A stretch of 64,000 nucleotides of DNA from Phycisphaerae bacterium (GTDB taxonomy: Bacteria; Planctomycetota; Phycisphaerae; Sedimentisphaerales; Anaerohalosphaeraceae): the NCBI GenBank assembly GCA_018052735.1, contig JAGPMT010000003.1, positions 1 to 64,000 on the forward strand. The letters run 5' to 3'. Numbering within the stretch: position 1 is the first letter of the stretch; every line of letters starts with the position of its first letter. The notes beneath the pieces are model-generated. The model worked only from the letters and a program-made list of their open reading frames with translations, was not told the origin of the DNA and made no database searches. Positions 2,081 through 64,000 of this stretch are shown here, piece by piece. A program made the position numbers and the translations under genes.

Positions 2081-2120
2081 TTTGCGCAAAATCGCCTTTA
2101 TTTAAGCGCAAAATTGACTT
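2081..2120 (+). promoter_or_regulatory. Putative XylR operator A: two GCGCAAAAT half-sites 22 bp apart
   Basis: Half-sites start at 2084 (GCGCAAAATCGCCTT) and 2106 (GCGCAAAATTGACTT), a 22-bp direct repeat. The block is nearly identical to 4015-4054, which precedes another secreted-protein gene. The distance to the ATG at 2247 is about 127 bases. AraC/XylR proteins are known to bind direct half-sites about two helical turns apart, so the neighbouring XylR is the natural candidate binder; that is inference. Confidence 0.6.
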
Positions 2121-2246
2121 GTTTTGAAGCTTTTTTTGTGGGAATATAAATGTTGGAAAGTTGGGTAAAATCGGGAAGTTTTAAAATCGTCGAAGAAACT
2201 TTTTAGTTTGCTTTAACCCATATTACTTTTTTTGGAGGACAGGAAG

Positions 2247-3140
2247 ATGAAAAGCATTTCAGTGAAGATCCCCTTTATTGCCGTTACCGTCCTTGCGCTG
2301 AGCGGACTGTGTTCAGCCGGCGTCTTGCTGTATGACACCTTTGCCGACGGCAGCCGAGCCGAAACCAACTTACCGAATGAATCGGCTGTGTGGGTCGGCA
2401 CGCCTGCCAGCGTAACGATGAATCCCGGCTCTTTGGCCTATGCCCAAGGCTCAAGCAGCCAAAAACTGTGGACTTATTTTGCACCCAACGGCTCGCCGGT
2501 CGAATTATCTGTTGGGCATCAATTGATTGCCACAATTACATTTACACCTCGCGTCAAGTTGTATGATTCATCGTCAAAGAATTTCCGCTTCGGTTTGTTT
2601 TATGATCCTACCAACGACCAGATAGCGGCTGATATCAACAGTGACTCCGGCGGAACGGGCGATCCGTGGAAAGATTCTACCGGCTATGCCGTGCATTTCC
2701 CGCTCAGTTCAGGCCCGACGAGTATCTCCAATTCCAGTGTCGGCAAGCGCATCCCAGACCTGCATACCAGTTTGCTGGGCAGCGGTTCTGCCTATCCAGG
2801 AATAACCAGCGGCGGGGCGAAGATTACAGCGACTCTTGACACCCTTTATACATTGACATTTAAACTGGATTATCAGGCGGCTAATGCAATGGTTGTAACT
2901 TTTACGCTGTCCGATGCCAGCGGTGTTCTTTCAACCAACTCCATAACAGATGACGGTACATTCGGCGGATACAATATGGGTATTTATACCAAGTTTGACC
3001 AATTGTTCTTCCGCTTCTCCAGTGCAACCGCAACCGCAGATGTAATCGATTTCCACAGCATTAAGGTTGAGCACATTGTGCCGGAGCCGGCGACGCTGGT
3101 TCTGCTGGGACTGGGCGGCCTGATGCTCAAACGCCGCTGA
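2247..3140 (+). CDS. Secreted PEP-CTERM protein of unknown function
   Basis: The protein has 297 residues. It has a signal peptide (basic MKSISVK start, hydrophobic core, cleavage near LCSAG) and a C-terminal PEP-CTERM tail: VPEPATL, a short hydrophobic helix, then LKRR. In characterised systems such tails are recognised by an exosortase; no exosortase gene is in this window. The body is rich in Gly, Ser and Thr and looks like a beta-sandwich, but I recognise no catalytic motif. ATG 2247 is chosen over the upstream in-frame TTG at 2232 because GGAGG (2234-2238) is correctly spaced for it. It follows operator A. Its 3' end is nearly identical in DNA to that of the next gene. Confidence 0.85.
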   Translation: MKSISVKIPFIAVTVLALSGLCSAGVLLYDTFADGSRAETNLPNESAVWVGTPASVTMNPGSLAYAQGSSSQKLWTYFAPNGSPVELSVGHQLIATITFTPRVKLYDSSSKNFRFGLFYDPTNDQIAADINSDSGGTGDPWKDSTGYAVHFPLSSGPTSISNSSVGKRIPDLHTSLLGSGSAYPGITSGGAKITATLDTLYTLTFKLDYQAANAMVVTFTLSDASGVLSTNSITDDGTFGGYNMGIYTKFDQLFFRFSSATATADVIDFHSIKVEHIVPEPATLVLLGLGGLMLKRR

Positions 3141-3148
3141 CAGTATTG
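3073..3148 (+). repeat. 76-bp near-identical PEP-CTERM tail repeat, copy 1 (copy 2 at 3827-3902)
   Basis: The bases encoding the PEP-CTERM tail, the stop codon and about ten further bases match 3827-3902 at 75 of 76 positions (one A/G difference). The upstream parts of the two genes are unrelated, so the tail behaves as a movable or converted cassette. Confidence 0.85.
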
Positions 3149-3204
3149 AAACACGCAGTTTTCATTAAAATAAAACAAGAACAGTGATTGTGAGGAGTGA
3201 AACG

Positions 3205-3894
3205 ATGAAGCGAACGCTTTGGGTGTGTACAGCAGTGCTATTGGTGGTATCCAGTTTCGTGCAGGCGGCTCTGGTAGATGTTGTAGCCCTGCAGGGAAAA
3301 GCCGTCCAATACAAGAACGATACGGGAGTTTGGGTCAGCGAAACACGGCTTGCAACCCGTACAGCGGGGGTGTGGGGCGATGATCCGGCTTCCAATACGC
3401 TGGATGCCAAGAAATCGTATCTGCAGTTTGACATTTCGGGCATTCACGGTACTATTACCAGCGCTGTCCTGACGGTTTATTCGTTTCTGAGCAATTCGGA
3501 CGGAAAAGACTACTACATTTACGGTCTGAAGGACGGTGTTAACGAAACATGGAGCGCAGACACGATTGATTGGTTCTCGGCGCCTGCCAATGTAACCAAC
3601 AGCGGGACTGCTGTGGATCCGAGTTTAACGATCCAGCTGGCCTTTTGCGATTTTAATGCCGACGGCGTGCAGGATGTGTCCCATACCGATGTAACCGCAT
3701 TTGTCAATCAGGATACCGACGGGCTGGTAACATTTATCTTTACGGCCGGCGGGACGGCCTATATGTACAATGTATTGGCCGGCACCTATTACGATGCCCA
3801 GTATGTTCCGGTTTTGAGCATCGAGTACATTGTGCCGGAGCCGGCGACGCTGGTTCTGCTGGGGCTGGGCGGCCTGATGCTCAAACGCCGCTGA
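3205..3894 (+). CDS. Secreted DNRLRE-domain PEP-CTERM protein
   Basis: The protein has 229 residues: a signal peptide (cleavage near FVQAA), one DNRLRE-like/CBM96-like beta-sandwich (about 22-200; motifs ETRLATR, AKKSYLQFDISG, FVNQDTDGLVTFIFT) and a PEP-CTERM tail (VPEPATL...LKRR). DNRLRE domains are found on surface proteins of polysaccharide degraders, and relatives bind uronate-containing polysaccharides, so binding to pectin or the cell surface is plausible. ATG 3205 is preferred to GTG 3184 because GAGGAG lies just before it. The gene starts 64 bp after the previous stop and is followed by a strong terminator. Confidence 0.85.
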   Translation: MKRTLWVCTAVLLVVSSFVQAALVDVVALQGKAVQYKNDTGVWVSETRLATRTAGVWGDDPASNTLDAKKSYLQFDISGIHGTITSAVLTVYSFLSNSDGKDYYIYGLKDGVNETWSADTIDWFSAPANVTNSGTAVDPSLTIQLAFCDFNADGVQDVSHTDVTAFVNQDTDGLVTFIFTAGGTAYMYNVLAGTYYDAQYVPVLSIEYIVPEPATLVLLGLGGLMLKRR

Positions 3895-3902
3895 CAGTAT
3901 TG
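3827..3902 (+). repeat. 76-bp PEP-CTERM tail repeat, copy 2
   Basis: This is the second copy of the repeat at 3073-3148. It covers the tail codons, the stop and the first bases of the 3' untranslated region (CAGTATTG), with a single mismatch. Confidence 0.85.
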
Positions 3903-3940
3903 GCAAAAGGGTTTTTATTCAACCGGAGTTGACACAGATG

Positions 3941-3978
3941 CCGGCCGGGAAGAAAGTATTTTCCCGGCCGGTTTTTTT
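3941..3978 (+). terminator. Rho-independent terminator
   Basis: An 11-bp perfect stem (CCGGCCGGGAA at 3941-3951, TTCCCGGCCGG at 3961-3971) with a 9-base loop is followed by seven T residues. It ends the operon of the two PEP-CTERM genes. Confidence 0.93.
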
Positions 3979-4014
3979 GCGGCAGCGCAGCAGCGCATGT
4001 GCCCCGCAGCCCTG

Positions 4015-4054
4015 TTGCGCAAAATCGCTTTTATTTTAGCGCAAGATTGCCTTG
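4015..4054 (+). promoter_or_regulatory. Putative XylR operator B: two GCGCAARAT half-sites 22 bp apart
   Basis: Half-sites start at 4017 (GCGCAAAATCGCTTT) and 4039 (GCGCAAGATTGCCTT), with the same 22-bp period and the same T-rich spacer (TTTATTT) as operator A. It lies about 110 bases before the ATG at 4165. Confidence 0.6.
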
Positions 4055-4164
4055 CTGAAAAGTTCATCCCTGAACGATAATAATAGGATAGGTTTGGGAA
4101 TGCAGAGATTACCCAATAGCAGGCCCCTTTGGGCATAAACGTGTTTTAGATGAGGAGAAGAACA

Positions 4165-5367
4165 ATGAGCACATCGTATCGTTTTTGGTTTGTTGTGGCC
4201 GTTTGTCTGGCCGTGTCGGGTCTGGCGGCAGCCGGCACTGCGGAGATAGCCGCCGTGCAGGGCAAAGCCGCTGATGCACGCACTCCCAATGAAGTCATCG
4301 GTGAAACCCGCCTTGCAACGCGCAGTGCCACTTGGCCGGATGCCAAGAAGTCATGGCTGCAATTTGATTTGAGCGATCTTTATTTCAAAAATCCGGGCCT
4401 GCGGGGCCATATCACCAATGCCAAACTGGTTTTCTATGGAGCCAAGAGTGAAACAGGCGCCAAAACCTATGCGGTCAGCGGGCTGAATGATTCGGCCAAT
4501 CTGGAAAACTGGACAGCGGCGGCACTGACGTGGAACAATGCGCCGGCCAACGACACAGTCAGCCCAACGGCACTGGCGGCAGGACTGACCACGGCGCTTT
4601 ATACCGGCACGGTGGACGTGCCCTGTCTGGATGTGAAGAGCGAAACGCCGGAAGCAGCGCGGGCAGCCCTGACCGATTTCCTGAATACGGATACCGATGG
4701 GAAGATAACATTTATATTGACTGCCGGCGGCACGAGCTATTTATGGAATGTCGGCGAAGCCCTTGAACCGAAGCTGGTCATCGAAGGCGCTATTGCCCAG
4801 TCCTATGAATGCGAGGGTGTGGGCATTCCGTTTTCGGCCTATGCGGCAGTCAGCTGCCGGGTCGAGGGTGCAACCTATGCCAATACCAACCGCACGGATT
4901 CCAGCAAGCTGAGCGTGCGTGCCAGTTCCAACGGCGTCAAATCGTGGATTAAGTTTGATTTGCGGGAGCTGGGGATCGACCCGAACAACCTGAAATCGGC
5001 TACCCTGCGGGTTGCGCTTCACGCCGGCAAAGGCGGCAGCCAAACCTGTGAGGTGTCGGCTGTCAACGACAATTACCGCACCAACATCAATTGGGGCGAA
5101 ACGGACATCACATGGAACAACGCTCCGGGTAATGATACCAGCAGCTTGGGCCTTCTGAATCCGGCGCAAACAACGCTGATGGGGACCATTGCTTTTACGG
5201 ATGGTCTGGCCGGCCAGCAGTTCTTTATTGATGTTCTGCCGGCCCTGCAGGCGGATACCGACGGCATTGTCCAGTTTGTTCTGCATAACTCGCCGAATCT
5301 GCTGGATTTTGCCACGCACGATCATCCGTCGGGTGCGGAATACTGGCCGCGGCTGGATATCCTGTAG
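4165..5367 (+). CDS. Tandem DNRLRE secreted protein, ended early by an in-frame TAG
   Basis: The protein has 400 residues up to the stop. After a signal peptide (cleavage near LAAAG) come two DNRLRE-like domains. Domain 1 (about 25-210) has ETRLATR, AKKSWLQFDLSD and DFLNTDTDGKITFIL; domain 2 (about 215-400) has SKLSVRAS, VKSWIKFDLRE, INWGETDITWNNAPGND and DTDGIVQFVLHN. ATG 4165 is used rather than 4150 because GAGGAG at 4152-4157 serves it. The paralogue at 6191 continues from the same point into PKD and dockerin-like domains. Here TAG at 5365-5367 intervenes, yet the reading frame after it stays open and homologous to 6126. This is therefore a nonsense-interrupted gene, a readthrough gene, or a sequence error. 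Confidence 0.85.
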   Translation: MSTSYRFWFVVAVCLAVSGLAAAGTAEIAAVQGKAADARTPNEVIGETRLATRSATWPDAKKSWLQFDLSDLYFKNPGLRGHITNAKLVFYGAKSETGAKTYAVSGLNDSANLENWTAAALTWNNAPANDTVSPTALAAGLTTALYTGTVDVPCLDVKSETPEAARAALTDFLNTDTDGKITFILTAGGTSYLWNVGEALEPKLVIEGAIAQSYECEGVGIPFSAYAAVSCRVEGATYANTNRTDSSKLSVRASSNGVKSWIKFDLRELGIDPNNLKSATLRVALHAGKGGSQTCEVSAVNDNYRTNINWGETDITWNNAPGNDTSSLGLLNPAQTTLMGTIAFTDGLAGQQFFIDVLPALQADTDGIVQFVLHNSPNLLDFATHDHPSGAEYWPRLDIL

Positions 5368-6126
5368 GCGCCCTATGGGGCAGATAAGCCCTATCCCTGT
5401 CCGGGACAGGTTGTTCCCAGCACGTTAGCGGGTCTGTCGTGGGCCAATCCGGATGTCAACGATATCAATCCGCAGATATGCCCCACGGTTTATTTGGGAA
5501 CGGAGCCGAACCGCCTGAAGATGGACAGCGTGCTGCTGCCGGTCAATGCAGAGTCGGTGCTGATTAATACAGCCAATTTCCCCCGTTTCGGCTCACTGGT
5601 CAACAAGCAAACCTATTACTGGATTGTGGACTGCCGCAACGAGAAAACCGGTAAAGTGATTCCGGGTCTGGTCTGGAGTTTTTATGTCAATAACAACGAA
5701 GCGCCGGTTGTCGAGGCAGGAAATCCGCAGGTGCTCTGGGGGCTGCCGAAGGCAGTTGCTCTGGACGGCTCGGTCACCGACGACGGACTGCCGAGTTCTT
5801 CTTATACGGTGCTGTGGACGCAGGTCGACAACGGCGCTCCGGCGGCGGTTATCAGTCCGGCGGATGCGGAAGATACCACTGTTACAATAACGCAGCGCGG
5901 CGATTATCTATTTAAGCTGACAGCCGATGACGGCGAGGCCCAAGGGTCCGATACCGTTCGGGTGGTGGTCGGCGAAACGCCCTGTGATGCGTCGCATCTG
6001 TCAAGCGGAGCCGCTTATGCGCCGGGCGATGTCAATAAGGACTGCATTGTAAATCTGGAAGATTTTGCTCTGCTGATAGCGCCCAACTGGATGGATTGTA
6101 CCGATGAGCTGACGCTGTGTCAGTAA
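5368..6126 (+). pseudogene. C-terminal part (PKD-like plus dockerin-like) of the TAG-interrupted DNRLRE gene
   Basis: This is the same frame as 4165-5367, continuing after the TAG for 252 codons. It begins APYGADKPYP and includes LSWANPD, VYLGTEPNRLKMD and YYWIVDC, which align with the fibronectin-like linker of the 6191 paralogue (LSWTNPE, VFLGTEPNLLTMD, YYWKVDC). A PKD-like domain follows (VALDGSVTDDGLP, GDYLFKLTADDGEAQGSD) and then a dockerin/EF-hand-like tail (GDVNKDCIVNLEDFALL). The sequence is intact apart from the TAG, with no frameshift or decay, so the interruption is recent or tolerated. An internal ATG exists in the downstream region, but no good ribosome binding site was seen there. 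Confidence 0.75.
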
Positions 6127-7677: not shown

Positions 7678-8496
7678 ATGAAACACAGGAAAAACAGAAT
7701 CGGTTTTACGCTGATTGAACTGCTGGTGGTGATTGCGATTATTGCGCTGCTGCTGTCGGTGCTGCTGCCGGGCCTGAAGAAAGCCAAGGATTACTCCAAG
7801 CGGGTTATCTGCGGTGCCCGGCTCAAGCAGATCGGCTCGGCGATGAAGCTGTATGCCAATGCGTTTGATGAGTATCTGCCCGATGACCACGATCTGGGCA
7901 ATCCGGCCAACCGCGAGCGGCATGCCTATGTGGTGTATCGGCAGAATCCCGGCTATGTTTATCTCAATGGAAAACTCAAGCCGCTGCGGTTTGCCTATCT
8001 GTATGAGCTGGACTATATTGATGTGCCCGAAATCTTCTACTGTCCCGGCAACCGGCTGCAGACCTATATGTATGAATCCTATACCAATCCTTCGCCGTGG
8101 GGCAGTCTGCCGCAGGCCTACAATGCCAATACCGGCAATGAGTGGGTTCGCATCGGGTATATTTACTATCCGGTCGAAGTCGATACCAAGCTGGACCCGG
8201 CATGGAATGCCCCCCGGGAGCTGGCGCTGAAGTATATCAAGCTGCATCCGAGCATGCCGTATACGGCGGATATTATTCACAACCGGCCGACCATCAGTCA
8301 TCAGAATAACAAGATTTATTCGCTCAACGGCCTCTATGCCGACGGTCATGTGTCGTTCTGCAACGACCAGTCGGTATTCCAAAACCTCAAAGATCCTTCC
8401 GGCAAGGATATCTGGAATACGCTGGATGCCGGCGGCTTCGACATCCGGTTCTACGATACCGCCTACTATACCGTATTCCGGGCGATGGGGCCGTAA
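7678..8496 (+). CDS. Pseudopilin-like protein (prepilin N-terminal motif, H-X9-DG type)
   Basis: The protein has 272 residues. It begins with a prepilin peptidase site, GFTLIELLVVIAII, after a short basic leader (MKHRKNRI), so it should be cut after Gly and N-methylated as in type II/IV pilin systems. The post-helix region (KAKDYSKRVICGARLKQIG) and the C-terminal YADGHVSF are typical of the expanded planctomycete H-X9-DG pseudopilin families, whose role is not established. No other pilus or secretion genes are nearby. The gene ends 39 bp before the oxidoreductase, so the two may share a message. Confidence 0.88.
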   Translation: MKHRKNRIGFTLIELLVVIAIIALLLSVLLPGLKKAKDYSKRVICGARLKQIGSAMKLYANAFDEYLPDDHDLGNPANRERHAYVVYRQNPGYVYLNGKLKPLRFAYLYELDYIDVPEIFYCPGNRLQTYMYESYTNPSPWGSLPQAYNANTGNEWVRIGYIYYPVEVDTKLDPAWNAPRELALKYIKLHPSMPYTADIIHNRPTISHQNNKIYSLNGLYADGHVSFCNDQSVFQNLKDPSGKDIWNTLDAGGFDIRFYDTAYYTVFRAMGP

Positions 8497-9759: not shown

Positions 9760-9816
9760 CAGCAGATTGACTCCCAACATACGAAGACAGACGAAACGGA
9801 CAAGGATTGTATAGTG

Positions 9817-11616
9817 ATGAAACAGCAATGGATGCACAGGACAGGATGGCTTATTTTATCTGCACTGCTGGCGGTTAGTTGGCGGGGCTTGGGTGCAGAA
9901 CGGTATTGGGATATAGAATACGGCACAGCAGAGCCGGTGCGGCTGGTGCTGGATGCCGGTGTGCCGGATGGGCCCCTGCTTCGTCCGGCGGTGATTCTCA
10001 TCCACGGGGGCGGCTGGAGCAGCGGCGACAAAAAGGATATGGCGTTCTTAACCGAGCCGCTGTCGGAGGCGGGCTTGGTGTGGTTTTCGATCAATTACCG
10101 GCTGGCACCGGATTATCGGTGGCCTGCCTGTCTGGAGGATGTTAAAACAGCGATTCGGTGGGTTAAGAGCCACGCGAAGGAATACAAAGCGGATGCTTCC
10201 CGCATCGGGCTGATTGGATACTCGGCAGGCGGGCATCTGGCCTGTATGGCCGCTGTTACGGCAGACGAACAGACACGGGTACAGGCCGTTGTGGGTATTG
10301 CGCCGCCGACCGACCACGAAGCAGACAGCCGGCGGCGGGGGGGCCTGAGTCCATCGCTGCAAAAGCTGCTGGACCGGCAGCAGGAGATAACGGATGAAAC
10401 GCGGCTGCTGTTGCAGCGGATTTCACCTGTTCAGTATGTCAATGCCGGCCTGCCGCCGTTTCTGCTGATTCACGGCACCGAGGATACCAGCGTGCCGTAT
10501 TCCCAGTCGATAGAGTTCAAGGCCAAACTGGACCACTACAATGCCCCCTGCCGGCTGATTGCGCTTCAGGGGGCCGGCCATCGCTTGTCCGATTGGCCGA
10601 CACAGGATTATCTGGCAGAGATGATCAATTGGCTCAAGCAGGCGCTGGATAGTGAGCGTCGCGTGCCCCTGCAGGCGCCTGCACCAAGAACGATCCTTGC
10701 TAAAACCGTTGCCCAAGACGGAAGCGGGGATTTTACCTCCGTGCAGGCCGCTGTGGATGCCGTGCCTGACGGCAACGAAGACAGCATTGTGATTGCCGTC
10801 AAGCCCGGCGTTTATAAGGAGCGGATTGTTGTGCCCCGCCATAAGCGGTTTATCTGTTTTAAGGGTACTGAGGCGTCAGATACCATTTTGACATTTGATT
10901 TGTATGCAGGCATTCAAGATGCACAAGGCAAAGAAATCGGCACTTTCCGCACACCCTCGGTAACGATTGAGGCGGATGATTTTACGGCAGAAAATATTAC
11001 CTTTGAAAACTCGGCAGGGCCGGTAGGGCAGGCCGTGGCTATTGCTGTGTTTGGCGACCGTGCTGTTTTCCGCAATTGCCGATTTTTGGGCTGGCAGGAT
11101 ACCATTTTGGATCATTTAGGACGGCATTATTATGAGAATTGCTATATTGCCGGGCACTGCGATTTTATCTTCGGCGGGGGAACAGCATTTTTTGAAAAAT
11201 GCAGGATTGAATGTCTCAAAAACGGGTATATAACAGCAGCATCGACACCCGAGAAGCAGCCGTTTGGATATGTCTTCAGCAATTGTACCATTACCGGTCA
11301 GCCGGGCGTCAAGACCTATCTGGGAAGGCCGTGGCGGGATTATGCCAATGTGATATTTCTCAATACCGAGATGTCCGACACGGTTCGGCCGGAGGGCTGG
11401 CACGATTGGGATAAGCCCTATCGCCAGACGACGGCCCGCTATGGCGAGTATAACAGTCGCGGTGCCGGAGCAGCACCTGAAGCACGCGTGCCTTGGGCAC
11501 GCCGGCTGACAGCGGAACAGGCGGCGGATATTACTGTGCAGGCGGTTCTTGGCGGGACTGACGGCTGGAATCCTCTGGCAAAGCCGGCTCAAGCCCCTGC
11601 ACCGCCGGCACAATGA
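9817..11616 (+). CDS. Bifunctional secreted alpha/beta-hydrolase esterase fused to pectin methylesterase (CE8)
   Basis: The protein has 599 residues with a signal peptide (cleavage near LGAER). Residues about 25-280 are an alpha/beta hydrolase: oxyanion motif HGGGW, nucleophile elbow GYSAGG, acid in HGTEDTSVPY and catalytic His in GAGHRL, as in acetyl/feruloyl esterases of polysaccharide clusters. Residues about 290-590 are a CE8 pectin methylesterase with all diagnostic blocks: GQAVAI, GWQDTIL, CDFIFGGG (two catalytic Asp) and LGRPWRDYA. It would remove ester groups and methyl esters from homogalacturonan to prepare it for lyases. The start is ATG 9817; GTG 9814 is an equal alternative, since AAGG at 9802 suits either. 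It is the first gene of the pectin operon. Confidence 0.9.
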   Translation: MKQQWMHRTGWLILSALLAVSWRGLGAERYWDIEYGTAEPVRLVLDAGVPDGPLLRPAVILIHGGGWSSGDKKDMAFLTEPLSEAGLVWFSINYRLAPDYRWPACLEDVKTAIRWVKSHAKEYKADASRIGLIGYSAGGHLACMAAVTADEQTRVQAVVGIAPPTDHEADSRRRGGLSPSLQKLLDRQQEITDETRLLLQRISPVQYVNAGLPPFLLIHGTEDTSVPYSQSIEFKAKLDHYNAPCRLIALQGAGHRLSDWPTQDYLAEMINWLKQALDSERRVPLQAPAPRTILAKTVAQDGSGDFTSVQAAVDAVPDGNEDSIVIAVKPGVYKERIVVPRHKRFICFKGTEASDTILTFDLYAGIQDAQGKEIGTFRTPSVTIEADDFTAENITFENSAGPVGQAVAIAVFGDRAVFRNCRFLGWQDTILDHLGRHYYENCYIAGHCDFIFGGGTAFFEKCRIECLKNGYITAASTPEKQPFGYVFSNCTITGQPGVKTYLGRPWRDYANVIFLNTEMSDTVRPEGWHDWDKPYRQTTARYGEYNSRGAGAAPEARVPWARRLTAEQAADITVQAVLGGTDGWNPLAKPAQAPAPPAQ

Positions 11617-11718: not shown

Positions 11719-14220
11719 ATGAAAAAACGCCAATTCGGATTATTTCTTCTTGGCTTGATGCTGGCATGGCCCTGCCTTGCCGAACCGATGACAGCGGAAC
11801 AGGGCTGGCAGATGGTGCCGGAAATCCTGCAGCGGATTGTGCCGCCGACCTTTCCGGATAAAGATTTTCCCATTACCCAGTTCGGAGCCGTCGGCAACGG
11901 CGACAGAGACTGCACGGAGGCCTTTCGAAAGGCCATCGACGCCTGCAGTTCGGCCGGCGGGGGGCGTGTGGTTGTGCCCAAAGGCATCTATCTGACCGGT
12001 GCGATTCATTTAAAAAGCAATGTAAATCTGTATCTGGAAAAAGAAGCCGTCATCAGCTTCTTTACCAATCCAGACGATTATCTGCCGGCGGTATTTGCGC
12101 GATTTGAAGGAACCGAATGCTGGAATTATTCGCCGCTGGTGTATGCCTTCGAGCAGGACAATATTGCCGTTACCGGCAGCGGCACGCTGGACGGCAACGC
12201 CGGTATCACCAATTGGTGGCGGTGGAAATGGACGCAGAAGGCCGATGTGGAGAAGCTGACCCAGCAGGCCGAACAGCAGATGCCGGTTGAACAGCGCGTT
12301 TTCGGCAGCGGTCATAAGCTGCGGCCCAATATGATTGTGCCCTACCGCTGCAAAAATGTTCTGATTGAAGGGGTAACGATAAAGAACAGCCCGATGTGGC
12401 ATATTCATCCGGTGCTCTGTCAAAATGTTACCGTCCGCAATGTCACGGTTATAGGCCATGGGCCCAACAACGACGGGTGCAATCCGGAATCGTGCCGGGA
12501 TGTGCTGATTGAAAACTGCTTTTTTGATACCGGCGACGACTGCATCGCCATCAAATCGGGCCGCAACGCCGACGGGCGGCGCGTGAACGTTCCTTCGGAG
12601 AATATCATTGTCCGCAAATGCACCATGAAGGACGGCCACGGCGGAGTGGTTATCGGCAGCGAGGTATCCGGCAGCGCCCGCAACATTTTTGCCGAAGACT
12701 GTGTGATGGACAGCCCCAATCTGGATCGCGGCCTGCGGCTGAAGACCAATTCGGTGCGGGGCGGTGTGATTGAAAATATCTTTATGCGCAATGTAACGAT
12801 GCCGCAGGTTAAGGAAGCGGCGCTGCTGATAGACTTTTATTATCAGGAAGGCGACAGCGGCCGGTTTGATCCGGTGGTGCGCAACATCTTTATGACCAAT
12901 GTCCGCTGTGCCAAAAGCCGATATCCATGGCTGATGCGGGGTTATCCGAGAGCGCCGATTCGCAATGTCGTGCTTGAAAACTGTGTTTTTGAAACAATGG
13001 AGCAGCCCGGCATTGCCGAGGCGGTAGAAGGTTTCATTGTCCGAAACGATGCCCCGTCAGCCGGCCGGACATCCGGGCAGTGGTCCGAGAAGATGATCGC
13101 ATCGGTCATTCGGCAGAATCCGCAGGCATGGATGATTGATTTCAGCCCTTCGCCCCGATGGAAATATGCGATTGGAGTGGTTCTCAAGGGCATCTGGGAG
13201 GCGGGGATACGCAGCGGCCGGGAGGACTATTTGCAGTATGTGCAGGGCTACTATGATACGCTGATAACAGAAGACGGCCGCATTCAGACCTACGAGCTGG
13301 AGACCTACAATATCGATAATATCAATCCCGGCAAGACGCTGATCGATTTGTATCAGCGCTGGCCGCAGGACAAGTATAAGCGGGCCATCGAAACGCTGCG
13401 GGACCAGATGCGGACGCATCCCCGTGTGGCGGAAGGGGGATTCTGGCACAAGAAGATATATCCGCACCAGATGTGGCTGGACGGCATCTATATGGGCAGC
13501 CCTTTTTTGGCGCAGTATGCCGATGTATTTGAGGAGCCGGCGCTGTTTGATGATGTAGCGCGGCAGATTATTTTGATGAACCGGGTTTCCCGCGACCAGC
13601 GAACCGGCCTGCTGTATCACGGCTGGGATGAATCGCGCAGCCAAAAATGGGCAGATCCCCAGACCGGACGCTCGCCGAACTTCTGGGGCCGGGCTATGGG
13701 CTGGTATGCGATGGCGCTGGTGGATACGCTGGATTTTTTCCCCAAAGACCACCCCCAGCGCGGTGAGATTATCACGATTCTCAATCAGCTGGTCGAGGCG
13801 GTCTGCCGTGTGCAGGATGAGCAGACAGGATTGTGGTATCAGGTGCTGGATCAATCCGGCCGGCAGGGGAATTATTTGGAATCCTCTTGTTCTTCGATGT
13901 TTGTTTATGCGATGTTCAAGGCGGTCCGTCACGGGTACATCCCGCAGCGGTATTTCCAAAATGCCCAACGGGGATATCAGGGCATATTAAAGCAGTTTGT
14001 GGAGACAACAGCCGATGGTCTGGTTCATCTGCACAAGGGATGCGCAGTGGCCGGCTTGGGCGGCAATCCATACCGAGACGGCTCCTTTGAATACTATATC
14101 AGCGAGGCAGTCCGCACCGATGATCCCAAGGCGGTCGGGCCGTTTATTTTAGCCAGTCTGGAGTACGAAGCGGCAGGGTCGGCGATTGAGACCACGGCAG
14201 TGCAGCGCTATGCAAACTAA
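11719..14220 (+). CDS. Bifunctional GH28 polygalacturonase / GH105 unsaturated uronyl hydrolase
   Basis: The protein has 833 residues with a signal peptide (cleavage near CLAEP). Residues about 50-455 are GH28 with the catalytic blocks PNNDG, DTGDDCIAIKSG, GHGGVVIGSE and RGLRLKTN all present. Residues about 470-825 are GH105 (YteR/RhiN type): HQMWLDGIYMGSPF carries the proposed catalytic Asp, followed by GRSPNFWGRAMGWY. GH28 cuts galacturonan or rhamnogalacturonan backbones; GH105 releases the unsaturated uronic acid that lyases leave at the non-reducing end. One protein would therefore shorten products from both ends. AGAGGTGA precedes ATG 11719. The next gene overlaps its 3' end by 11 bases. 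Confidence 0.93.
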   Translation: MKKRQFGLFLLGLMLAWPCLAEPMTAEQGWQMVPEILQRIVPPTFPDKDFPITQFGAVGNGDRDCTEAFRKAIDACSSAGGGRVVVPKGIYLTGAIHLKSNVNLYLEKEAVISFFTNPDDYLPAVFARFEGTECWNYSPLVYAFEQDNIAVTGSGTLDGNAGITNWWRWKWTQKADVEKLTQQAEQQMPVEQRVFGSGHKLRPNMIVPYRCKNVLIEGVTIKNSPMWHIHPVLCQNVTVRNVTVIGHGPNNDGCNPESCRDVLIENCFFDTGDDCIAIKSGRNADGRRVNVPSENIIVRKCTMKDGHGGVVIGSEVSGSARNIFAEDCVMDSPNLDRGLRLKTNSVRGGVIENIFMRNVTMPQVKEAALLIDFYYQEGDSGRFDPVVRNIFMTNVRCAKSRYPWLMRGYPRAPIRNVVLENCVFETMEQPGIAEAVEGFIVRNDAPSAGRTSGQWSEKMIASVIRQNPQAWMIDFSPSPRWKYAIGVVLKGIWEAGIRSGREDYLQYVQGYYDTLITEDGRIQTYELETYNIDNINPGKTLIDLYQRWPQDKYKRAIETLRDQMRTHPRVAEGGFWHKKIYPHQMWLDGIYMGSPFLAQYADVFEEPALFDDVARQIILMNRVSRDQRTGLLYHGWDESRSQKWADPQTGRSPNFWGRAMGWYAMALVDTLDFFPKDHPQRGEIITILNQLVEAVCRVQDEQTGLWYQVLDQSGRQGNYLESSCSSMFVYAMFKAVRHGYIPQRYFQNAQRGYQGILKQFVETTADGLVHLHKGCAVAGLGGNPYRDGSFEYYISEAVRTDDPKAVGPFILASLEYEAAGSAIETTAVQRYAN

Positions 14221-17910: not shown

Positions 17911-19614
17911 ATGAAAACATTATACGCAATCAACGGCCGCACTCTTTTTTTGAAGGCGGCGGCTGTGCTGCTGTGCCTTTGCGGGATGGGCGCACAGGCA
18001 ACAGTGTATTGGGACAGATATGCAGCGAAACCGGATGAATGGTTCGGCGGCCCAGAAGCCCGAAAAATAGCAGACAATATTCTCACTTGGCAGGACGCAC
18101 ACGGCAGCTGGCCTAAAAATCTGGATACGGCTTCCAAGCCCTTTTCCGGCAGCCGGAAAGATATCGAAGGAACCTTTGACAATCAAGCGACCACAGGGGA
18201 AATGCGTTTTCTGGCCCGTGCTTACAAAGCAACGCAGGATTTGCGTTATCAGGAGGCGTTTCTCAAGGCGCTGGATTTGATTATTCAGGCACAGTATCCC
18301 ACCGGCGGCTGGCCGCAGTCTTATCCGCCGGGCAAAGACTACTCCCGCCATATTACCTTTAATGATGGGGCAATGGTGCGGCTGATGGAGCTGCTTGAGG
18401 ACATTGCCTCTGAGCCGGCGTATGATTTTGTCGATGCCTCCCGCCGCCAGATGTGCCGGCAGGCCTTTGAAAACGGCGTCCAATGCATTCTTAAATGCCA
18501 GATACGTGTCAATGGAAAACTGACGGTTTGGTGTGCGCAGCATGACGAGATGGATTACAGCCCGCGTCCGGCGCGAACGTATGAGCTGGCGTCGCTGAGC
18601 GGGGGCGAAAGCGCAGAGATTCTGCGGCTTCTGATGGAGCTGGACAATCCGAGCCCTGCCGTTATCGAGGCCATTCAGGCCGGCGTACAGTGGTATGAAT
18701 CATCCAAAATTGAGGGCATTCGCATAGCGCTGGTAAACGGCCAGCCGACGGCTGTCAGCGACCCGCAGGCCAAACCGATGTGGGCGCGTTTTTATGAAAT
18801 CCAGACAAATCGGCCGTTCTTCTGCGACCGCGACGGGATTCCAAAGTATGATTACAACCAGCTTGGTCTTGAACGCCGTAAGGGGTACGCTTGGTATGGC
18901 AATTGGGGCGAAGACGTTTTTAAAAATTACCAGAAATGGCGTCAGCGATGGGAACATCTTATGGTTGCCGAAGGGACAAAAATTCTGCTGATTATAGGTG
19001 ATTCGACTGTCTGCAGCTGGCCCGAAACGGATGCACGGCGGGGATGGGGGCAGTATATTCAGCCGTACTTTATGGATGCGGTTAAAGTCATCAATCATGC
19101 CCGCAGCGGGCGAAGCACCAAGACCTTTATCAAAGAAGGATTGTGGAGCAAAGCACTGGCGGTCAAACCCGATTGGGTACTGATTCAGTTCGGGCACAAT
19201 GATTCCCATGACCCAAACAGGCCGGAATCGACAAATGCAGACACGGATTATTCGGATTATCTGCGGTACTATATTGACCAATCGCGTGCGGCAGGAGCGA
19301 TACCAGTACTGATAACGCCGATGCATCGTCGAAACTTTGATTCCCGCGGGAAAATGAAGGATGTCCTGCTGCCTTATGCCAATGCGATGAAAAAAGTCGC
19401 AAATGAAAAGAAAGTTGCTCTTGTGGATTTGCATAAGTCCAGCGGAGAACTTTTTGAATCGTTAGGTCCGGCCGGTTCTGAGGAACTGGCCAATCAGGCC
19501 GGTGACAAAACACACTTCAACCAAAAAGGTGCAAAACTGATGGCGGAGCTGGTTATGAGGGATTTGCCGAATGTTGAGCCGTCCTTAAAAAAGTATATAA
19601 AAGAGCAAAAATAG
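17911..19614 (+). CDS. Bifunctional PL10 pectate lyase / CE12 rhamnogalacturonan acetylesterase
   Basis: The protein has 567 residues with a signal peptide (cleavage near GAQATV). Residues about 30-350 are a PL10 pectate lyase: ADNILTWQDAHGSWPKN, TFDNQATTGEMRFLARA, PTGGWPQSYP and ITFNDGAMVRLM. Residues about 355-560 are an SGNH-fold CE12 esterase with GDSTVCSW (nucleophile Ser), ARSGRST, QFGHNDSHD and DKTHFNQKGA (catalytic Asp/His). It would remove acetyl groups and cleave the galacturonan backbone by elimination. It is the last gene of the pectin operon, 32 bp after the DUF4450-like gene, with a GAGG ribosome binding site. Confidence 0.92.
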   Translation: MKTLYAINGRTLFLKAAAVLLCLCGMGAQATVYWDRYAAKPDEWFGGPEARKIADNILTWQDAHGSWPKNLDTASKPFSGSRKDIEGTFDNQATTGEMRFLARAYKATQDLRYQEAFLKALDLIIQAQYPTGGWPQSYPPGKDYSRHITFNDGAMVRLMELLEDIASEPAYDFVDASRRQMCRQAFENGVQCILKCQIRVNGKLTVWCAQHDEMDYSPRPARTYELASLSGGESAEILRLLMELDNPSPAVIEAIQAGVQWYESSKIEGIRIALVNGQPTAVSDPQAKPMWARFYEIQTNRPFFCDRDGIPKYDYNQLGLERRKGYAWYGNWGEDVFKNYQKWRQRWEHLMVAEGTKILLIIGDSTVCSWPETDARRGWGQYIQPYFMDAVKVINHARSGRSTKTFIKEGLWSKALAVKPDWVLIQFGHNDSHDPNRPESTNADTDYSDYLRYYIDQSRAAGAIPVLITPMHRRNFDSRGKMKDVLLPYANAMKKVANEKKVALVDLHKSSGELFESLGPAGSEELANQAGDKTHFNQKGAKLMAELVMRDLPNVEPSLKKYIKEQK

Positions 19615-19694: not shown

Positions 19695-20246
19695 ATGAGT
19701 AAAGAAGATATGGAGTCAGATAAAATAAAATCTGAGGAATTGGCGGTTTTTTGGGCACAGCACCAGCCGGCTATCGCAGGATTTGTCTGCTCACTGGTTC
19801 CGAATTTTCAGGATGCCGATGATATTCTGCAGAATGTGGCGGTTATTACTGTCGAGAAATTTGATGAGTATGACCGCAGCAAGCCGTTTGTCGGGTGGGC
19901 CATTGGCATTGCCCGCAATCTGATTCTAAAGTATTACTCGGACAAGAAAAAGGACAGGATTACACTGGATTCCAAGGCCATTGAAAACATATCGCGCGTT
20001 TATGAAGCCGAGATGCAGACATTCAGCAGCCATAAAACGATGGTTGAAAATGCGATGGAGCGGTGCCTCGAACAACTGAAAGGCCGATGGCGTATTTTGG
20101 TGGAGATGTATTATCTCCGGGAATTCTCCACCGCTCGCATTGCCCAGCAGCTGGGTATGACGCCGGGCAATGTGTTGACCTCGCTTCATCGTGTCCGTGC
20201 AGCATTGCGGGATTGTGTAGCCAATCGGATCAAGCGGGAAGCATGA
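19695..20246 (+). CDS. ECF-type RNA polymerase sigma factor
   Basis: The protein has 183 residues. Region 2 (about 25-90) shows DADDILQNVAVITVEKF and FVGWAIGIARNLI; region 4 (about 125-178) shows LEQLKGRWRILVEMYYLREFSTARIAQQLGMTPGNV. This matches the planctomycete/verrucomicrobial ECF families. Its stop overlaps the start of the FecR gene (ATGATG at 20243), so the two are translationally coupled and the FecR protein is its likely membrane regulator. AAGGGG (19685-19690) precedes ATG 19695. Confidence 0.93.
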   Translation: MSKEDMESDKIKSEELAVFWAQHQPAIAGFVCSLVPNFQDADDILQNVAVITVEKFDEYDRSKPFVGWAIGIARNLILKYYSDKKKDRITLDSKAIENISRVYEAEMQTFSSHKTMVENAMERCLEQLKGRWRILVEMYYLREFSTARIAQQLGMTPGNVLTSLHRVRAALRDCVANRIKREA

Positions 20247-21967
20247 TGCATGAAAATTTGGACAAATTGGTCAGCCAATTCCTTTATGATCAGGCGTCCA
20301 TGACGCCGGATCAGGCAGAGCAGTTGTCCAGCTGGATCAGCCGCAGTCCGGACAATGCCCGCCATTTTGTTCGGTCTGCGATATTTCATCGCTGCATTCA
20401 CGATTACTTTGTCTGTTCGGATAATGTTCGCGACGCAATGCTGCATTTTTCGGCCGATACGCTGCAGTTTAATAAAGAAGCTTCCGATGTATTCAATCCT
20501 GAAATATGGCGTCTTTTGTCGGAGACAGAAAACACGGCGCCGGCGGTAGAGTGTTCCCCGCCCACAGCTTCGCGGCAGCCGGCCGGAATTCAGAAAATAA
20601 AGGTTGAAAAAGTGCCGCGGAAAATCAGCAGGTTATCGCTTGCAACGCTGGTTGTATCTTTGGCGGCGCTGCTATTTGCTGTTGTCTATGTACAGGTTGT
20701 TCCGGTTGCGGTTCACGAAGAAGTGGCGACAGTGGCCGATACGCTGAATGCCCAATGGGCCGATTCGGATGAATCCCTCAAAAGCGGCGATCGGCTGCGC
20801 ACCAACACACCGCCGCTGCTGCTTCGCAAGGGCATCGTGAAGCTGGTCTTTGATAATGACACAAGCGTATTGGTGGAAGCGCCGGCGGAGTTTGTGTTAG
20901 TAGCCGGCGACCAGATGAATCTGAATTACGGCCGGGCTTATGCCATTGTGCCGCGGCAGGCCATCGGCTTTACGATAACAACGCCCAATTCCAAGATTAT
21001 CGATTTGGGGACAGAATTCGGTGTGCAGGTGGACTTGGGCCAAATCACCCAGCTGCATGTGGTCAAGGGCAAAACGACGCTTGTGGCGGGCCGGGAAAGC
21101 CTTAAGACGACTCTGGAAGTCAATCAGGGACAGGCCAAAAAAATCACCAGCCAATCGGAGGTTGCGGATATTCAATGCGATAGCCGGCTGTTTGTGCGGG
21201 ATATCCAGTCCAAGCGAAATATCATCTGGCGGGGCGGGCCATTGGATATTGCGGATATGGTCGGCGGGGGCAATGGTCTGGGAACCGGCAAGCCCAATAC
21301 GGGCATTCGCTGGGAGGACGGCTGTTTTGTCTCCGCAAGCGATTATTATGTCGGTCAGCGGGAACAGGGGAGCGGCCTTTTTATCTCGGTGCCTGACAGT
21401 CTGTTTATCGAGGGCATTTTTGTGCCCAACAGTGAAAACGGACCTATTGCCCTATGTGCCGATGCGAGCCTGAAATGGAATCTGCCCCAGACGCGCGGGC
21501 AGTATTGCTACAATATCAATAACGCCGGCACAATCAGCCGCGGTAGCGGCCGGATTCCCTTTCACAGGCAAATACTGGGCGGGCGTCCCTGCGGCACGCC
21601 GGACAATCCGGCTGTTTCGATGCATGCCAATGCCGGCCTGACCCTGAATCTGGAGAAAATACGGCAGTATTATAACGGGATGCCGATTGTTTCTTTTACC
21701 GCGCTGTGCGGATTTTCGGAAACCTATTTTGAGTATGCGGCCAAAGTGGATCCGGAATTGATTCCGCAGGCGGATTTCTATGTGCTGGTGGACGGACAAG
21801 AGCGTTTTGTCCGCAAAGATATGACACCCAATGACAAGCCCTGTTCAATATATGTTGCGTTGGGTCCGAATGACCGTTATCTGACGCTGGCGACAACCGC
21901 CGGCAGCGACCAGAAAGTGTCCTATGACTGGTGTCTGTTTGCCTGTCCGCGGCTGAATATGGAATAA
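20243..21967 (+). CDS. FecR-domain transmembrane regulator, partner of the ECF sigma factor
   Basis: The protein has 574 residues. The cytoplasmic N-terminus (1-130; QFLYDQASMTPDQAEQLSSWI) is the short anti-sigma-like segment seen in planctomycete FecR proteins. One membrane helix lies at about 131-153. A periplasmic FecR domain follows (about 160-305; SGDRLRT, LVFDNDTSVLVEAPAEF, IIDLGTEFGVQV, HVVKGKTTL). The remaining 250 residues are beta-rich (GGGNGLGTG and an aromatic-rich region) and unrecognised, possibly a ligand-sensing domain. FecR proteins transmit outer-membrane or periplasmic signals to ECF factors. A carbohydrate signal is inferred from the pectin genes on both sides. Confidence 0.85.
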   Translation: MMHENLDKLVSQFLYDQASMTPDQAEQLSSWISRSPDNARHFVRSAIFHRCIHDYFVCSDNVRDAMLHFSADTLQFNKEASDVFNPEIWRLLSETENTAPAVECSPPTASRQPAGIQKIKVEKVPRKISRLSLATLVVSLAALLFAVVYVQVVPVAVHEEVATVADTLNAQWADSDESLKSGDRLRTNTPPLLLRKGIVKLVFDNDTSVLVEAPAEFVLVAGDQMNLNYGRAYAIVPRQAIGFTITTPNSKIIDLGTEFGVQVDLGQITQLHVVKGKTTLVAGRESLKTTLEVNQGQAKKITSQSEVADIQCDSRLFVRDIQSKRNIIWRGGPLDIADMVGGGNGLGTGKPNTGIRWEDGCFVSASDYYVGQREQGSGLFISVPDSLFIEGIFVPNSENGPIALCADASLKWNLPQTRGQYCYNINNAGTISRGSGRIPFHRQILGGRPCGTPDNPAVSMHANAGLTLNLEKIRQYYNGMPIVSFTALCGFSETYFEYAAKVDPELIPQADFYVLVDGQERFVRKDMTPNDKPCSIYVALGPNDRYLTLATTAGSDQKVSYDWCLFACPRLNME

Positions 21968-21993
21968 CAGAAGAAGACAGAAAGGAAATTGTT

Positions 21994-22737
21994 ATGAAAA
22001 CCAAAAAAGGTTTTACATTGATTGAGCTGCTGGTTGTTATAGCGATTATTGCGCTGCTGCTGTCCATTATAATGCCGGCCTTGAGGAAGGCCAAGGAGTA
22101 TGCCAAGAAGGTTATCTGCCAGTCGAATCAGCATCAGTTCGGCGTGGTGATTGCCACCTATGGCACCGAGTTTAACTACAATTTCAGAAATTATAAAACC
22201 GCAGTTGGTCTGAATGCCACCCAGCTGGCGCGTTCGTGGTTCTGGGTCAACGGCACGGGCGATTATGCCCACGAAGCCGAACCCCGCGCGATTCGGTTTA
22301 TTATGAACAGCGGTCTGCTACCGGACCGGCGGGTCTTTTTCTGTCCGAGCATGAATAATTTATCACATGACAAGAATTATGTGGCCGGCAGTCTGGTACC
22401 GCAGAATACCGAGGTGATCTACCGCAATGGGCAGACGCCGCTGTTCTGGGGGACTTTTGTATGGCTGTGGAAAAAGGAGATGCGGGAGGATGTAGTTTCC
22501 ATCAACAATCTGTCCAGCGGGGCGATGATGTGTGATATGACCAACGAGGCCTGGACACTGGGGGCAGGGACCAATGCGACACTTCAGAATTTTATGAACA
22601 ATATCCAATTAAAACGGACTTTCCAGCACGGCAATGTGCTGATGGACGATATGAGCGTTAAAAATCCCAGCGATAAGGACCCTGAACTGGTGTACTGGCT
22701 GTGGAATCACACGAAGTGGGCTGGGCGTTCGTATTAA
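21994..22737 (+). CDS. Pseudopilin-like protein
   Basis: The protein has 247 residues with the prepilin signature KKGFTLIELLVVIAIIALLL right after a five-residue leader and the post-helix KAKEYAKKVICQSNQHQFG. The C-terminal segment (FQHGNVLMDDMSV) is a weakened version of the H-X9-DG motif. ATG 21994 follows AAAGGAAA; an in-frame ATG at 21931 lies inside the FecR gene and is rejected because it would bury the leader. It lies 26 bp after the FecR gene, so sigma, FecR and pseudopilin look like one operon. Confidence 0.87.
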   Translation: MKTKKGFTLIELLVVIAIIALLLSIIMPALRKAKEYAKKVICQSNQHQFGVVIATYGTEFNYNFRNYKTAVGLNATQLARSWFWVNGTGDYAHEAEPRAIRFIMNSGLLPDRRVFFCPSMNNLSHDKNYVAGSLVPQNTEVIYRNGQTPLFWGTFVWLWKKEMREDVVSINNLSSGAMMCDMTNEAWTLGAGTNATLQNFMNNIQLKRTFQHGNVLMDDMSVKNPSDKDPELVYWLWNHTKWAGRSY

Positions 22738-22771: not shown

Positions 22772-22841
22772 CGACAAGTGAATAATGCGTTCTTTCGTTG
22801 TGTGCGGAAGACAGAATAAACTTTTTTTGCGGAGGTCAATT

Positions 22842-25079
22842 ATGATGAGAGTGAAACATTACTGGTTAGTAGGTCTGGTATGTCTGCTGGTGGTTGCTGC
22901 GGGGGCGTCGGCCAGCGTTACAGATCCGAATATTATTTCCAAAGTTGTGCGCTATAATCCCGACTCGGACAGCGGCGATACGGAGCCGAATCTGGTGCGA
23001 GGGGGGCTGCAGACGGGGGCACTTCCCTATACAGACCGTACGTTTGTTTTTGGAAGCGTGGGGCGGTTCACGGGCATTGATTATGTCCAGACCTGCGTCG
23101 ATGACAAGGATAATCCCAATTATCGGCTGGATGTAACCGTCAACAAAGCCGGCAAACTTTATCTGATTATTGACAACCGTGTCGGCAGCGGAACCGCCAA
23201 CGATACGACAACCCCGCCGGCATTGGGCAATGGGGTGATGGATTGGGTCTTGGCGATGGGCTTTACGCAGACGGCCTATACAGTCAATATCAGTACGCCG
23301 GCAACAGTGTATGAGCTGCCGGTTGCTGGAGCCGGCACTTACAGCTTAGGGGCACAGAATGACGGCACCAGCCGCGTGATGTATCTGGTGGCGGCTGCGC
23401 CGGCCGGATGGAACTTTGTGCCGGTGATTCAGGGAGTTCCTGCCGCAGTCCAAGTTGAGCCGGGGGAAAAATTAGAGATTGATGCAACCGTTACCGACGA
23501 TGACGGTCCGTCGGCTGTGACGGTTCAGTGGACAACCGTTTCTAAGCCGGAAGGGGCGACAGTCACCTATTCGCCGGATGCGGTCAGCGAAGATGTGGCA
23601 ATCAGTTTTTCAGATTTGGGCAATTATACGCTCAAACTGACGGCCTATGACGGGGAGAAGACAACGGAAGCCGTTATTCAGGCTGCTGTCAAGATTCCTG
23701 AATTTGCACTGGAGTGCACCAATTGGGTTGAGGCCTGCAATGATACAAATAAGGGACCGACGGCGCATTACAAGCCGACTTCCTATATGTATGTTCGCAA
23801 TCACAGTGCCCCGCGGCGGCGGATTGAGCTTATCAGCTATGATATTTCCAGCCTGAAGCAGCCCGGCAAGGCGATTGCCAATTCGTTTATTTCCCTGCGG
23901 CGCCGAACAGGTCACAGTGCGGCTGTTTTGTCTGTTTACGGCGTTCGTGAAGAATTCGACAATTTTAATCTCGATACCGGTTCATGGAGCAATCTGCCGG
24001 GCCTTGCCAATACGCCGGTTCCGCCGATGACCGACCAGATTACGCTGGCATCGCTGGACCTTGCCGACCTTTCCGATCTGCTGCTGACATACGGCCCGAA
24101 TGTGCCGGCCGGCAGTGCGTGGTCGAACTCGCCGACATCCCCGGCGTTGGATGCATTTCTGAATGCAGATACGGACGGCACTGTGCTGCTGCTGTTTGTA
24201 ACCTTTACCCCCCAAGATGCTGACTTTGAGATTTTCTGCAAGGGTTATGATACAGCCAATTCTGAACCTGTAACCGGCAAGACGGGCATCGTTCTGCGCG
24301 GCAATGTGATGACCCAGACATGGGCTATCAATCCGTCTCCGGCGGTCAATTCCAGCCAGACGACCAAACTCAGTCAGCTTAGCTGGACGAATCCTGACGG
24401 CGAGGGCACTATTTCCTGCAATGTCTATATCGGTATGGGTGAACCCAATGCGCTGCTGCCGAATTACGGATTTACAACACTGGCAACGGGCATAACCGGC
24501 AATTCGGTTGCTATTCCGGCAGGACTGCTGGCAGGCGGCAATACCTACAAATGGATTGTGGACGTCTATGACAGCGGCACCGGCATTACAACCCGCGGCT
24601 ATGTCTGGAGCTTCAATGTACTGACCAATGCTGCGCCAACGGTGCAGATTGCAAATCCAATTCAGTATCTCTGGCTTGGCAATGCCGGCGACCCGGCTTC
24701 GGCGACAGCGGTTCTTGATGCTACAGCCAGTGACGACGGGCTTCTGATGCCCTTGACTTACTTCTGGGAGCAGTTAAGCGGTCCGGACGGTGCAGAAGTT
24801 GCCCTTGAGCCCAACAATGTAGAGGATAAGACGCTTATCCTGCCGGCGACAGGCATGTATGTATTTAAGCTGACGGTCAATGATGGCGAACACAGTGCAT
24901 CGGCCGCAGCCCAGATATTTGTCGGTGCTACGCCGTGCGATGCGGCCAAGGCCAAACCGGGTTATACGCCGCTGACAGGCGATTTCAACAATGACTGCTA
25001 TGTGGACCTGAATGACTTCAGCACATTTGCCTTGCAGTGGCTGGAATGCCATCCCTTTATGGATGCTCCATGCAGATAA
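22842..25079 (+). CDS. Secreted multidomain surface protein (PKD, DNRLRE, fibronectin-like, dockerin-like)
   Basis: The protein has 745 residues. After a signal peptide (cleavage near GASAS) come an unrecognised beta domain (about 25-190), a PKD/Ig-like domain (about 195-290; DATVTDDDGPS, LGNYTLKLTAYDGEK), a DNRLRE-like domain (about 295-490; LNADTDGTVLLLFVTF), a fibronectin-like part (about 505-615; LSWTNPDGEG, YKWIVDV), a second PKD domain (about 620-710) and a dockerin/EF-hand-like tail (TGDFNNDCYVDLNDFSTFALQW). It shares its domain order with the 6191 protein and probably binds polysaccharide or assembles surface complexes. GGAGG (22831-22835) supports ATG 22842. Confidence 0.83.
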   Translation: MMRVKHYWLVGLVCLLVVAAGASASVTDPNIISKVVRYNPDSDSGDTEPNLVRGGLQTGALPYTDRTFVFGSVGRFTGIDYVQTCVDDKDNPNYRLDVTVNKAGKLYLIIDNRVGSGTANDTTTPPALGNGVMDWVLAMGFTQTAYTVNISTPATVYELPVAGAGTYSLGAQNDGTSRVMYLVAAAPAGWNFVPVIQGVPAAVQVEPGEKLEIDATVTDDDGPSAVTVQWTTVSKPEGATVTYSPDAVSEDVAISFSDLGNYTLKLTAYDGEKTTEAVIQAAVKIPEFALECTNWVEACNDTNKGPTAHYKPTSYMYVRNHSAPRRRIELISYDISSLKQPGKAIANSFISLRRRTGHSAAVLSVYGVREEFDNFNLDTGSWSNLPGLANTPVPPMTDQITLASLDLADLSDLLLTYGPNVPAGSAWSNSPTSPALDAFLNADTDGTVLLLFVTFTPQDADFEIFCKGYDTANSEPVTGKTGIVLRGNVMTQTWAINPSPAVNSSQTTKLSQLSWTNPDGEGTISCNVYIGMGEPNALLPNYGFTTLATGITGNSVAIPAGLLAGGNTYKWIVDVYDSGTGITTRGYVWSFNVLTNAAPTVQIANPIQYLWLGNAGDPASATAVLDATASDDGLLMPLTYFWEQLSGPDGAEVALEPNNVEDKTLILPATGMYVFKLTVNDGEHSASAAAQIFVGATPCDAAKAKPGYTPLTGDFNNDCYVDLNDFSTFALQWLECHPFMDAPCR

Positions 25080-25111
25080 CGGTCTGAAAGCACACAGACT
25101 TTAATAAGATG

Positions 25112-25142
25112 GCGCCGGGTACTTGTTTTGTGTACCCGGTGC
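25112..25142 (+). terminator. Terminator-like hairpin
   Basis: An 11-bp stem (GCGCCGGGTAC at 25112-25122 with GTACCCGGTGC at 25132-25142, one G-T pair) follows the surface-protein gene by about 30 bases. The T run after it is weak (TATTCTTG). Confidence 0.55.
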
Positions 25143-25217
25143 TATTCTTGTATGGAAGGAAATACCAGAGCAGCGGGGGTTTCAATGTTGGATCAAATAA
25201 TGGGGGACTGTCGTTTA

Positions 25218-63632: not shown

Positions 63633-64000
63633 GAACCTAAGAATATGGTAGATTATTATATAAATCAAGCGAAAATATTCTATTTTCTTGTAAATTTTTA
63701 TTGTATGATTAGTGCAGACAGTTAAGCATATTGATTCACCAAAGTTTATAAAAATATAATTTTTGACTTAAAAAATATGGTTTTTTTAACACGATTTTAT
63801 CGCATGACTCAGATAGACTACGATTCTGCTGAGATTAATTATATTGATTATAATGAGTTGTATTAAATCAGGAAGGATTGGTTTTTTGGGGAAAAGTCCC
63901 AAATCAATTTTTTTTTAATGGGTATATTTGATAAATGCTGGCCAATTTCATACTATATCTATAATGTCGAGATCGAATCAATCGATTGCTGTTCTCCAAG
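63633..64000. other. AT-rich intergenic region at the window edge
   Basis: No gene is visible. A small inverted repeat TTGGG...CCCAA (about 63886-63903) is followed within a few bases by a run of nine T residues, terminator-like on the plus strand but without an upstream gene. The regulator's promoter is presumably here; no convincing -35/-10 pair was found. Confidence 0.4.

Follow-up and report, generated by a model that had tools for sequence, protein, structure and literature searches.

Regulators of the AraC family carry two helix-turn-helix motifs per monomer, which touch two successive major grooves of the DNA. When AraC itself is bound at araI1-araI2, it occupies two direct repeats approximately two helical turns apart, with a period of about 21 bp and with the proximal repeat over the -35 element, a layout designated class II. 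Direct repeats ahead of promoters are likewise the targets of the XylR protein of Escherichia coli, which acts on them as an activator.

The carbohydrate-degrading gene sets of planctomycetes are well catalogued, with many genes unassigned, and pili and crateriform structures have been discussed for polysaccharide binding in these bacteria (PMC11131199). In the verrucomicrobium Verruconatronum alginivorum, a pseudopilin was among the proteins found by proteomics to be over-expressed on alginate; a regulator or operator for it is not known to be described there (PMC13274419). In the literature searched, no account was found of a planctomycete pectin regulon under the control of XylR or AraC. 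The locus discussed here, a stretch of 64,000 nucleotides from a Phycisphaerae bacterium (the window), contains three conserved blocks that are, with high likelihood, the operator-promoters of a pectin-utilisation regulon, bound and switched on by the product of an adjacent xylR-like gene. The regulon appears to be undescribed, although the type of switch is familiar.

Operators in the Window

Operator 1 (2082-2122, + strand) and operator 2 (4015-4055, + strand) each consist of two 22-bp direct repeats, with the layouts TTGCGCAAAAT-CGC-CTTTATTTAA-GCGCAAAAT-TGA-CTTGT and TTGCGCAAAAT-CGC-TTTTATTTTA-GCGCAAGAT-TGC-CTTGC, respectively. Operator 3 (44781-44821, - strand), which faces a pseudopilin gene, is clearly weaker than the other two; its second box is GCGCATATT, and its -10 element is poor. 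The half-site pairs with a 22-bp period that an earlier note on this DNA had claimed for the three blocks are present at 2084 and 2106 (+), 4017 and 4039 (+), and 44819 and 44797 (-). Also the claimed likeness of the first two blocks holds: 35 of 40 positions are identical within the element (19/20 and 16/20), whereas the adjoining stretches of 20 bp agree at 3-10 positions each.

When scored with a matrix built from 38 sites of other genomes, from which the window sites were left out, operators 1, 2, and 3 reach 62.5, 59.8, and 28.2 bits, with genome chance expectations of ~4e-14, ~4e-13, and ~4e-5, respectively, and a scan of the window with this matrix revealed nothing else at or above 8 bits. 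Operator 2 matches the clade consensus with 0 mismatches. A strict two-box pattern gave 2 matches in the window vs. 0 in 100 shuffles. Whereas the matrix scan covered the window, the whole 2.88-Mb genome was scanned by pattern: with up to 3 mismatches allowed, the three window sites are the sole matches to the relaxed full-length pattern, and the reversed control pattern gave 0 matches. The sites are not scattered over the genome, as a refutation of the earlier note would have required; the full pattern is confined to the three blocks. Simple two-box matches at 3 mismatches were seen 7 times elsewhere in the genome (C5, C8, C10, C32, C51, C56, and C64), where our own base-count estimate predicts ~2; they are absent under the full pattern and were rejected as chance matches.

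Operator and Promoter Architecture

Close relatives contain the same pair of half-sites with the same T-rich middle and the same 22-bp period. The aligned sites yield the consensus TT-GCGCAAAAT-nnn-(C/T)TTTnTTTnn-GCGCAAnAT-TGn-CTTGT; further downstream comes a GAnAAT box, with its center ~60 bp from the first G. Since the conserved stretch continues beyond the second box (TTGNCTTGT) as far as the -10 element, the unit is the whole promoter. The T-rich middle, previously read as a spacer, is probably no spacer but half of each monomer's site, because the CTT stretch returns behind the second box in the corresponding position.

The geometry of the promoter is that of class II: two direct repeats with a period of 22 bp, i.e., about two helical turns, of which the second, proximal one overlaps the -35 element, with the -10 element at a fixed distance of ~17 bp downstream. 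Between TTGTnn (+35 to +40) and the -10 (+58) lie 17 bp. Of the 44 sites, 36 have a GATAAT-like box, mismatched at no more than one position, at +57 to +61, a count in which ties were resolved toward +58, so that the information in the alignment columns provides the unbiased evidence for the -10. In the window, the inferred core promoter of operator 1 (2119-2150, + strand) comprises the -35-like TTGTTT at 2119-2124 and, as -10, either GAATAT at 2142-2147 or TATAAA at 2145-2150, and that of operator 2 (4052-4081, + strand) comprises the -35-like TTGCTG at 4052-4057 and the -10 GATAAT at 4076-4081. A variant operator, in which TCACAA or ACACAA replaces GCGCAA in the second repeat, is kept across several species (L135:490, L140:5668, L143:3053, L144:4442, and L136:8034); in four of these cases, it precedes the same pseudopilin-PKD-PA14/CBM run.

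It may be argued that the XylR-like protein binds these sites but mainly represses, with an inducer relieving the repression as for a LacI-family protein. Its sensor domain is LacI-like, and with the second repeat over the -35 element it could block the polymerase. However, its DNA-binding domain is AraC-type, the layout matches that of class II activation, and the -35 matches are weak, as expected of activator-dependent promoters, which makes repression an improbable main function. Very probably, the adjacent XylR-like regulator switches on the three conserved promoters.

The XylR-Like Regulator and its Distribution

The xylR-like gene (739-1935, - strand) encodes a protein of 398 residues and probably specifies the trans-acting activator. 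The protein combines a LacI-type sugar-binding domain with an AraC-type helix-turn-helix domain (Pfam Peripla_BP_3, 7e-29, followed by HTH_18, 1e-16), and residues 16-394 match E. coli XylR (4FE4) over its full length (E 1.9e-36). Its orthologues, with 55-66% identity, form a group apart from many paralogues near 35%. They are found in 18 of the 161 genomes of the order, 17 of them full-length and one split (G029). Both recognition helices, of the SKRSLQ and HYTSNMRR types, are common to the orthologues, whereas in the paralogues the first is similar and the second is different.

A single half-site, TATTGCGCAAAATAA (1975-1983, + strand), lies ~40 bp from the xylR start. The earlier note had placed it in the xylR promoter, where it is indeed present, but it is near-palindromic (TTGCGCAA core) and kept in only part of the clade. 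In G010, G032, G025, and G061, counterparts lie at a distance of 25-40 bp from the start of xylR, and G060 has a weaker one; they are absent at five other orthologue loci (G033, G031, both contigs of G034, and G029). The half-site may be autoregulatory, and an AraC-like loop or simple self-repression of xylR is possible.

With a 31-position pattern and up to 3 mismatches, sites were detected in 11 of the 39 genomes of the family, and the reversed pattern in 0. In the whole order, operator sites are present in 14 of the 161 genomes, and their distribution follows that of the regulator: 13 genomes contain both site and orthologue, 1 the site only, 5 the orthologue only, and 142 neither (Fisher p = 2.4e-14; p = 4e-6 when counted by genus), figures to be read in the light of the many fragmented drafts and of shared ancestry, which accounts for part of the co-occurrence, as the genus g2 alone provides 6 of the 13 genomes with both. 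Within the genera g1, g13, and g17, a genome has either both operator and orthologue or neither. Weaker sites exist in four of the five orthologue-only genomes, i.e., G031 (beside xylR) and G086, G087, and G088 (45-48 bits); when these are counted, 17 of the 18 orthologue genomes carry a site. In the remaining one, G041, no site was found within the 40 kb examined. The operator divergently adjoins xylR in ten genomes (G033, G031, G010, G034 on both contigs, G032, G025, G029, G059, G060, and G061) and lies within ~600 bp of it in G086-G088. In most such genomes, xylR and a target gene point away from each other with one operator in the DNA between them. The sites are conserved upstream of orthologous genes, follow the XylR orthologue from genome to genome, and in most cases adjoin its gene, which supports the XylR regulon of surface proteins and a pseudopilin that the earlier note had proposed.

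Conversely, two perfect operators are found in G019 (L083, G019:C39), a 95% complete draft in which no close XylR orthologue was found; this may reflect an assembly gap or the use of another regulator. The latter would be in line with the idea that the sites generally serve a different protein, for which the window encodes two candidates, i.e., a second AraC-type protein (62760-63668) and an ECF sigma factor (19695-20246). However, the sites follow the XylR orthologue and mostly adjoin its gene, and paired 22-bp direct repeats before a -10 element are unlike an ECF promoter, which leaves such a regulator a very slim chance.

Several XylR paralogues have neighbouring direct repeats that retain GCGCAA and change the remainder. 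For example, the genome that contains the window encodes another XylR-type regulator, which is accompanied by a related direct repeat with a period of 21 (L155:2810-2850, G000:C63), which contains TTGCCG-17-TACAAT and precedes sugar-kinase and L-arabinose-isomerase-like genes. The number of GCGCAA pairs near XylR paralogues, 14 vs. 0-11 for control words, is weak evidence as a count; more weight attaches to single cases in which the promoter geometry is the same. In G059, a more distant XylR copy of 55% identity has diverged operators on both sides (L146:2469-2509, 16 bits, and 5183-5223, 23 bits), as would be expected if operator and regulator had diverged in parallel.

Genes Behind the Operators

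The first gene after operator 1 (2244-3140, + strand) encodes a secreted PEP-CTERM protein, in which the PEP-CTERM match is near the Pfam cut-off and reaches the NCBIfam domain cut-off. Its orthologues sit behind an operator in six other genomes (G033, G029, G034, G032, G025, and G061). It is followed by a gene for a CBM96/DNRLRE protein with a PEP-CTERM tail, as indicated by domain matches (3205-3894, + strand). The DNA encoding the tails of these two adjacent, otherwise unlike genes is near-identical (3060-3150 and 3815-3905), which suggests tail copying between them. The notion that blocks 1 and 2 are functionless relics of a recent promoter duplication, prompted by their strong similarity and by these shared tails, has practically nothing left to recommend it, since the flanks of the blocks are dissimilar, each position retains its own version across species in G032, G025, and G061, and unrelated genes on other contigs have sites fitting the same matrix, a cross-species conservation that already contradicts it.

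The first gene behind operator 2 encodes a CBM96 + PKD surface protein (4150-6126, + strand). It contains an in-frame TAG at 5365-5367, a mutation or an assembly error; the homologue behind an operator in G034 (L084:1577-3547) is one unbroken frame of 656 aa. Next comes a putative pectin operon (6191-28367, + strand), recognized by Pfam domains and probably a single unit. It starts with genes for a CBM96-PKD protein, a pseudopilin (7678-8496), and a GFO/IDH oxidoreductase, continues with a CE8 pectinesterase-esterase (9814-11616), a GH28-GH88 protein (11719-14220), a DUF4450 protein, and a PL10 protein (17911-19614), and ends with an ECF sigma/FecR pair, a second pseudopilin (21931-22737), a PKD protein, and a PA14-CBM protein. 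The ECF sigma and FecR-like pair (19695-21967) is located immediately ahead of the second pseudopilin gene; in relatives, homologues of this pseudopilin have an XylR operator in place of the sigma/FecR pair.

Operator 3 is followed by a gene for a pseudopilin-like protein (43589-44518, - strand), which carries the prepilin N-terminal motif (N_methyl, 2.7e-7; IV_pilin_GFxxxE above cut-off) and has a homologue with 53% identity in G019 that is also preceded by an operator. The second gene encodes a GH78 alpha-L-rhamnosidase (40187-43039, - strand). This order, a pseudopilin and then GH78, is in line with the pattern in relatives.

In relatives, the first genes after the operator encode PEP-CTERM and CBM96 proteins homologous to those of the window, and further pectate lyases with CBMs, pseudopilins, and DUF6298 proteins, behind which a BT_1020-like enzyme is encoded. 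A pseudopilin gene comes first at 13 of the 44 sites (~30%); some of these operator-headed pseudopilins are followed by an oxidoreductase-pectinesterase-GH28/88 run, others by homologues of 22785-28367. Overall, the regulon contains PEP-CTERM, CBM96, CE8, GH28-GH88, PL10, PL1, GH78, and RG-II-type enzymes and proteins. Judged by its predicted enzymes, i.e., a pectinesterase, a GH28-GH88 fusion, PL10, GH43, two GH78, GH127, and GH2, the window is a pectin locus. While the proposed link to XylR stands, the substrate thus has to be added, and it is pectin, not xylose: operators 2 and 3 head, or lead into, probable operons for pectinases and rhamnosidases. The gene content speaks against xylose as the effector, and the name XylR is misleading with respect to the substrate.

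Proposed Mechanism

A dimer of the XylR-like protein would occupy the two head-to-tail 22-bp sites through its AraC-type domains. Since AraC-type monomers contact two grooves, each 22-bp repeat can be taken to combine GCGCAAnAT with a box of the CTT(G/T) type; probably, one helix-turn-helix reads GCGCAAnAT and the other CTT(G/T)T one turn further, an allotment of helices to boxes that we infer. With the second repeat over the -35 element, ~17 bp before the GAnAAT -10, the protein would be placed as an AraC-type class II activator and, when a pectin-derived sugar is bound to its LacI-type domain, would recruit RNA polymerase. The pectinase operons would then be switched on, and with them the genes for pseudopilins and for the PEP-CTERM/CBM96 proteins that bind carbohydrates at the surface. 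In part of the clade, binding at the half-site near the xylR start may allow the protein to restrict its own production.

The predicted regulon draws poorly understood PEP-CTERM proteins, DUF6298, DUF4450, and pseudopilins into pectin use. The link with pseudopilins is its most interesting part, as their position at the head of pectin operons bears on how planctomycetes capture large polysaccharides. It is tempting, albeit rather speculative, to explain the association of pectinases, binding proteins of the cell surface, and substrate-induced pseudopilins by supposing that these planctomycetes build for each polysaccharide a regulated fibre of its own, pilus-like or of the type II secretion kind, for capture or uptake. 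The related direct-repeat operators of XylR paralogues constitute a data set for the recognition rules of AraC-type proteins.

Relation to Known Systems

The regulon is well supported and, although it appears to be new, of a familiar kind. The pseudopilin over-expressed by V. alginivorum likewise concerns a uronic-acid polysaccharide, but was seen by proteomics, in another phylum and on another substrate (PMC13274419).

The regulator shares its full-length architecture, a LacI-type ligand-binding domain and a C-terminal AraC-type domain, with the xylose operon regulator XylR of E. coli (PDB 4FE4/4FE7), but it is distant in sequence and very probably controls pectin genes. As in AraC class II activation, direct repeats lie approximately two helical turns apart, with the proximal one over the -35 element. 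In contrast to AraC, the period is 22 bp rather than ~21 bp, and the sensor domain is LacI-type.
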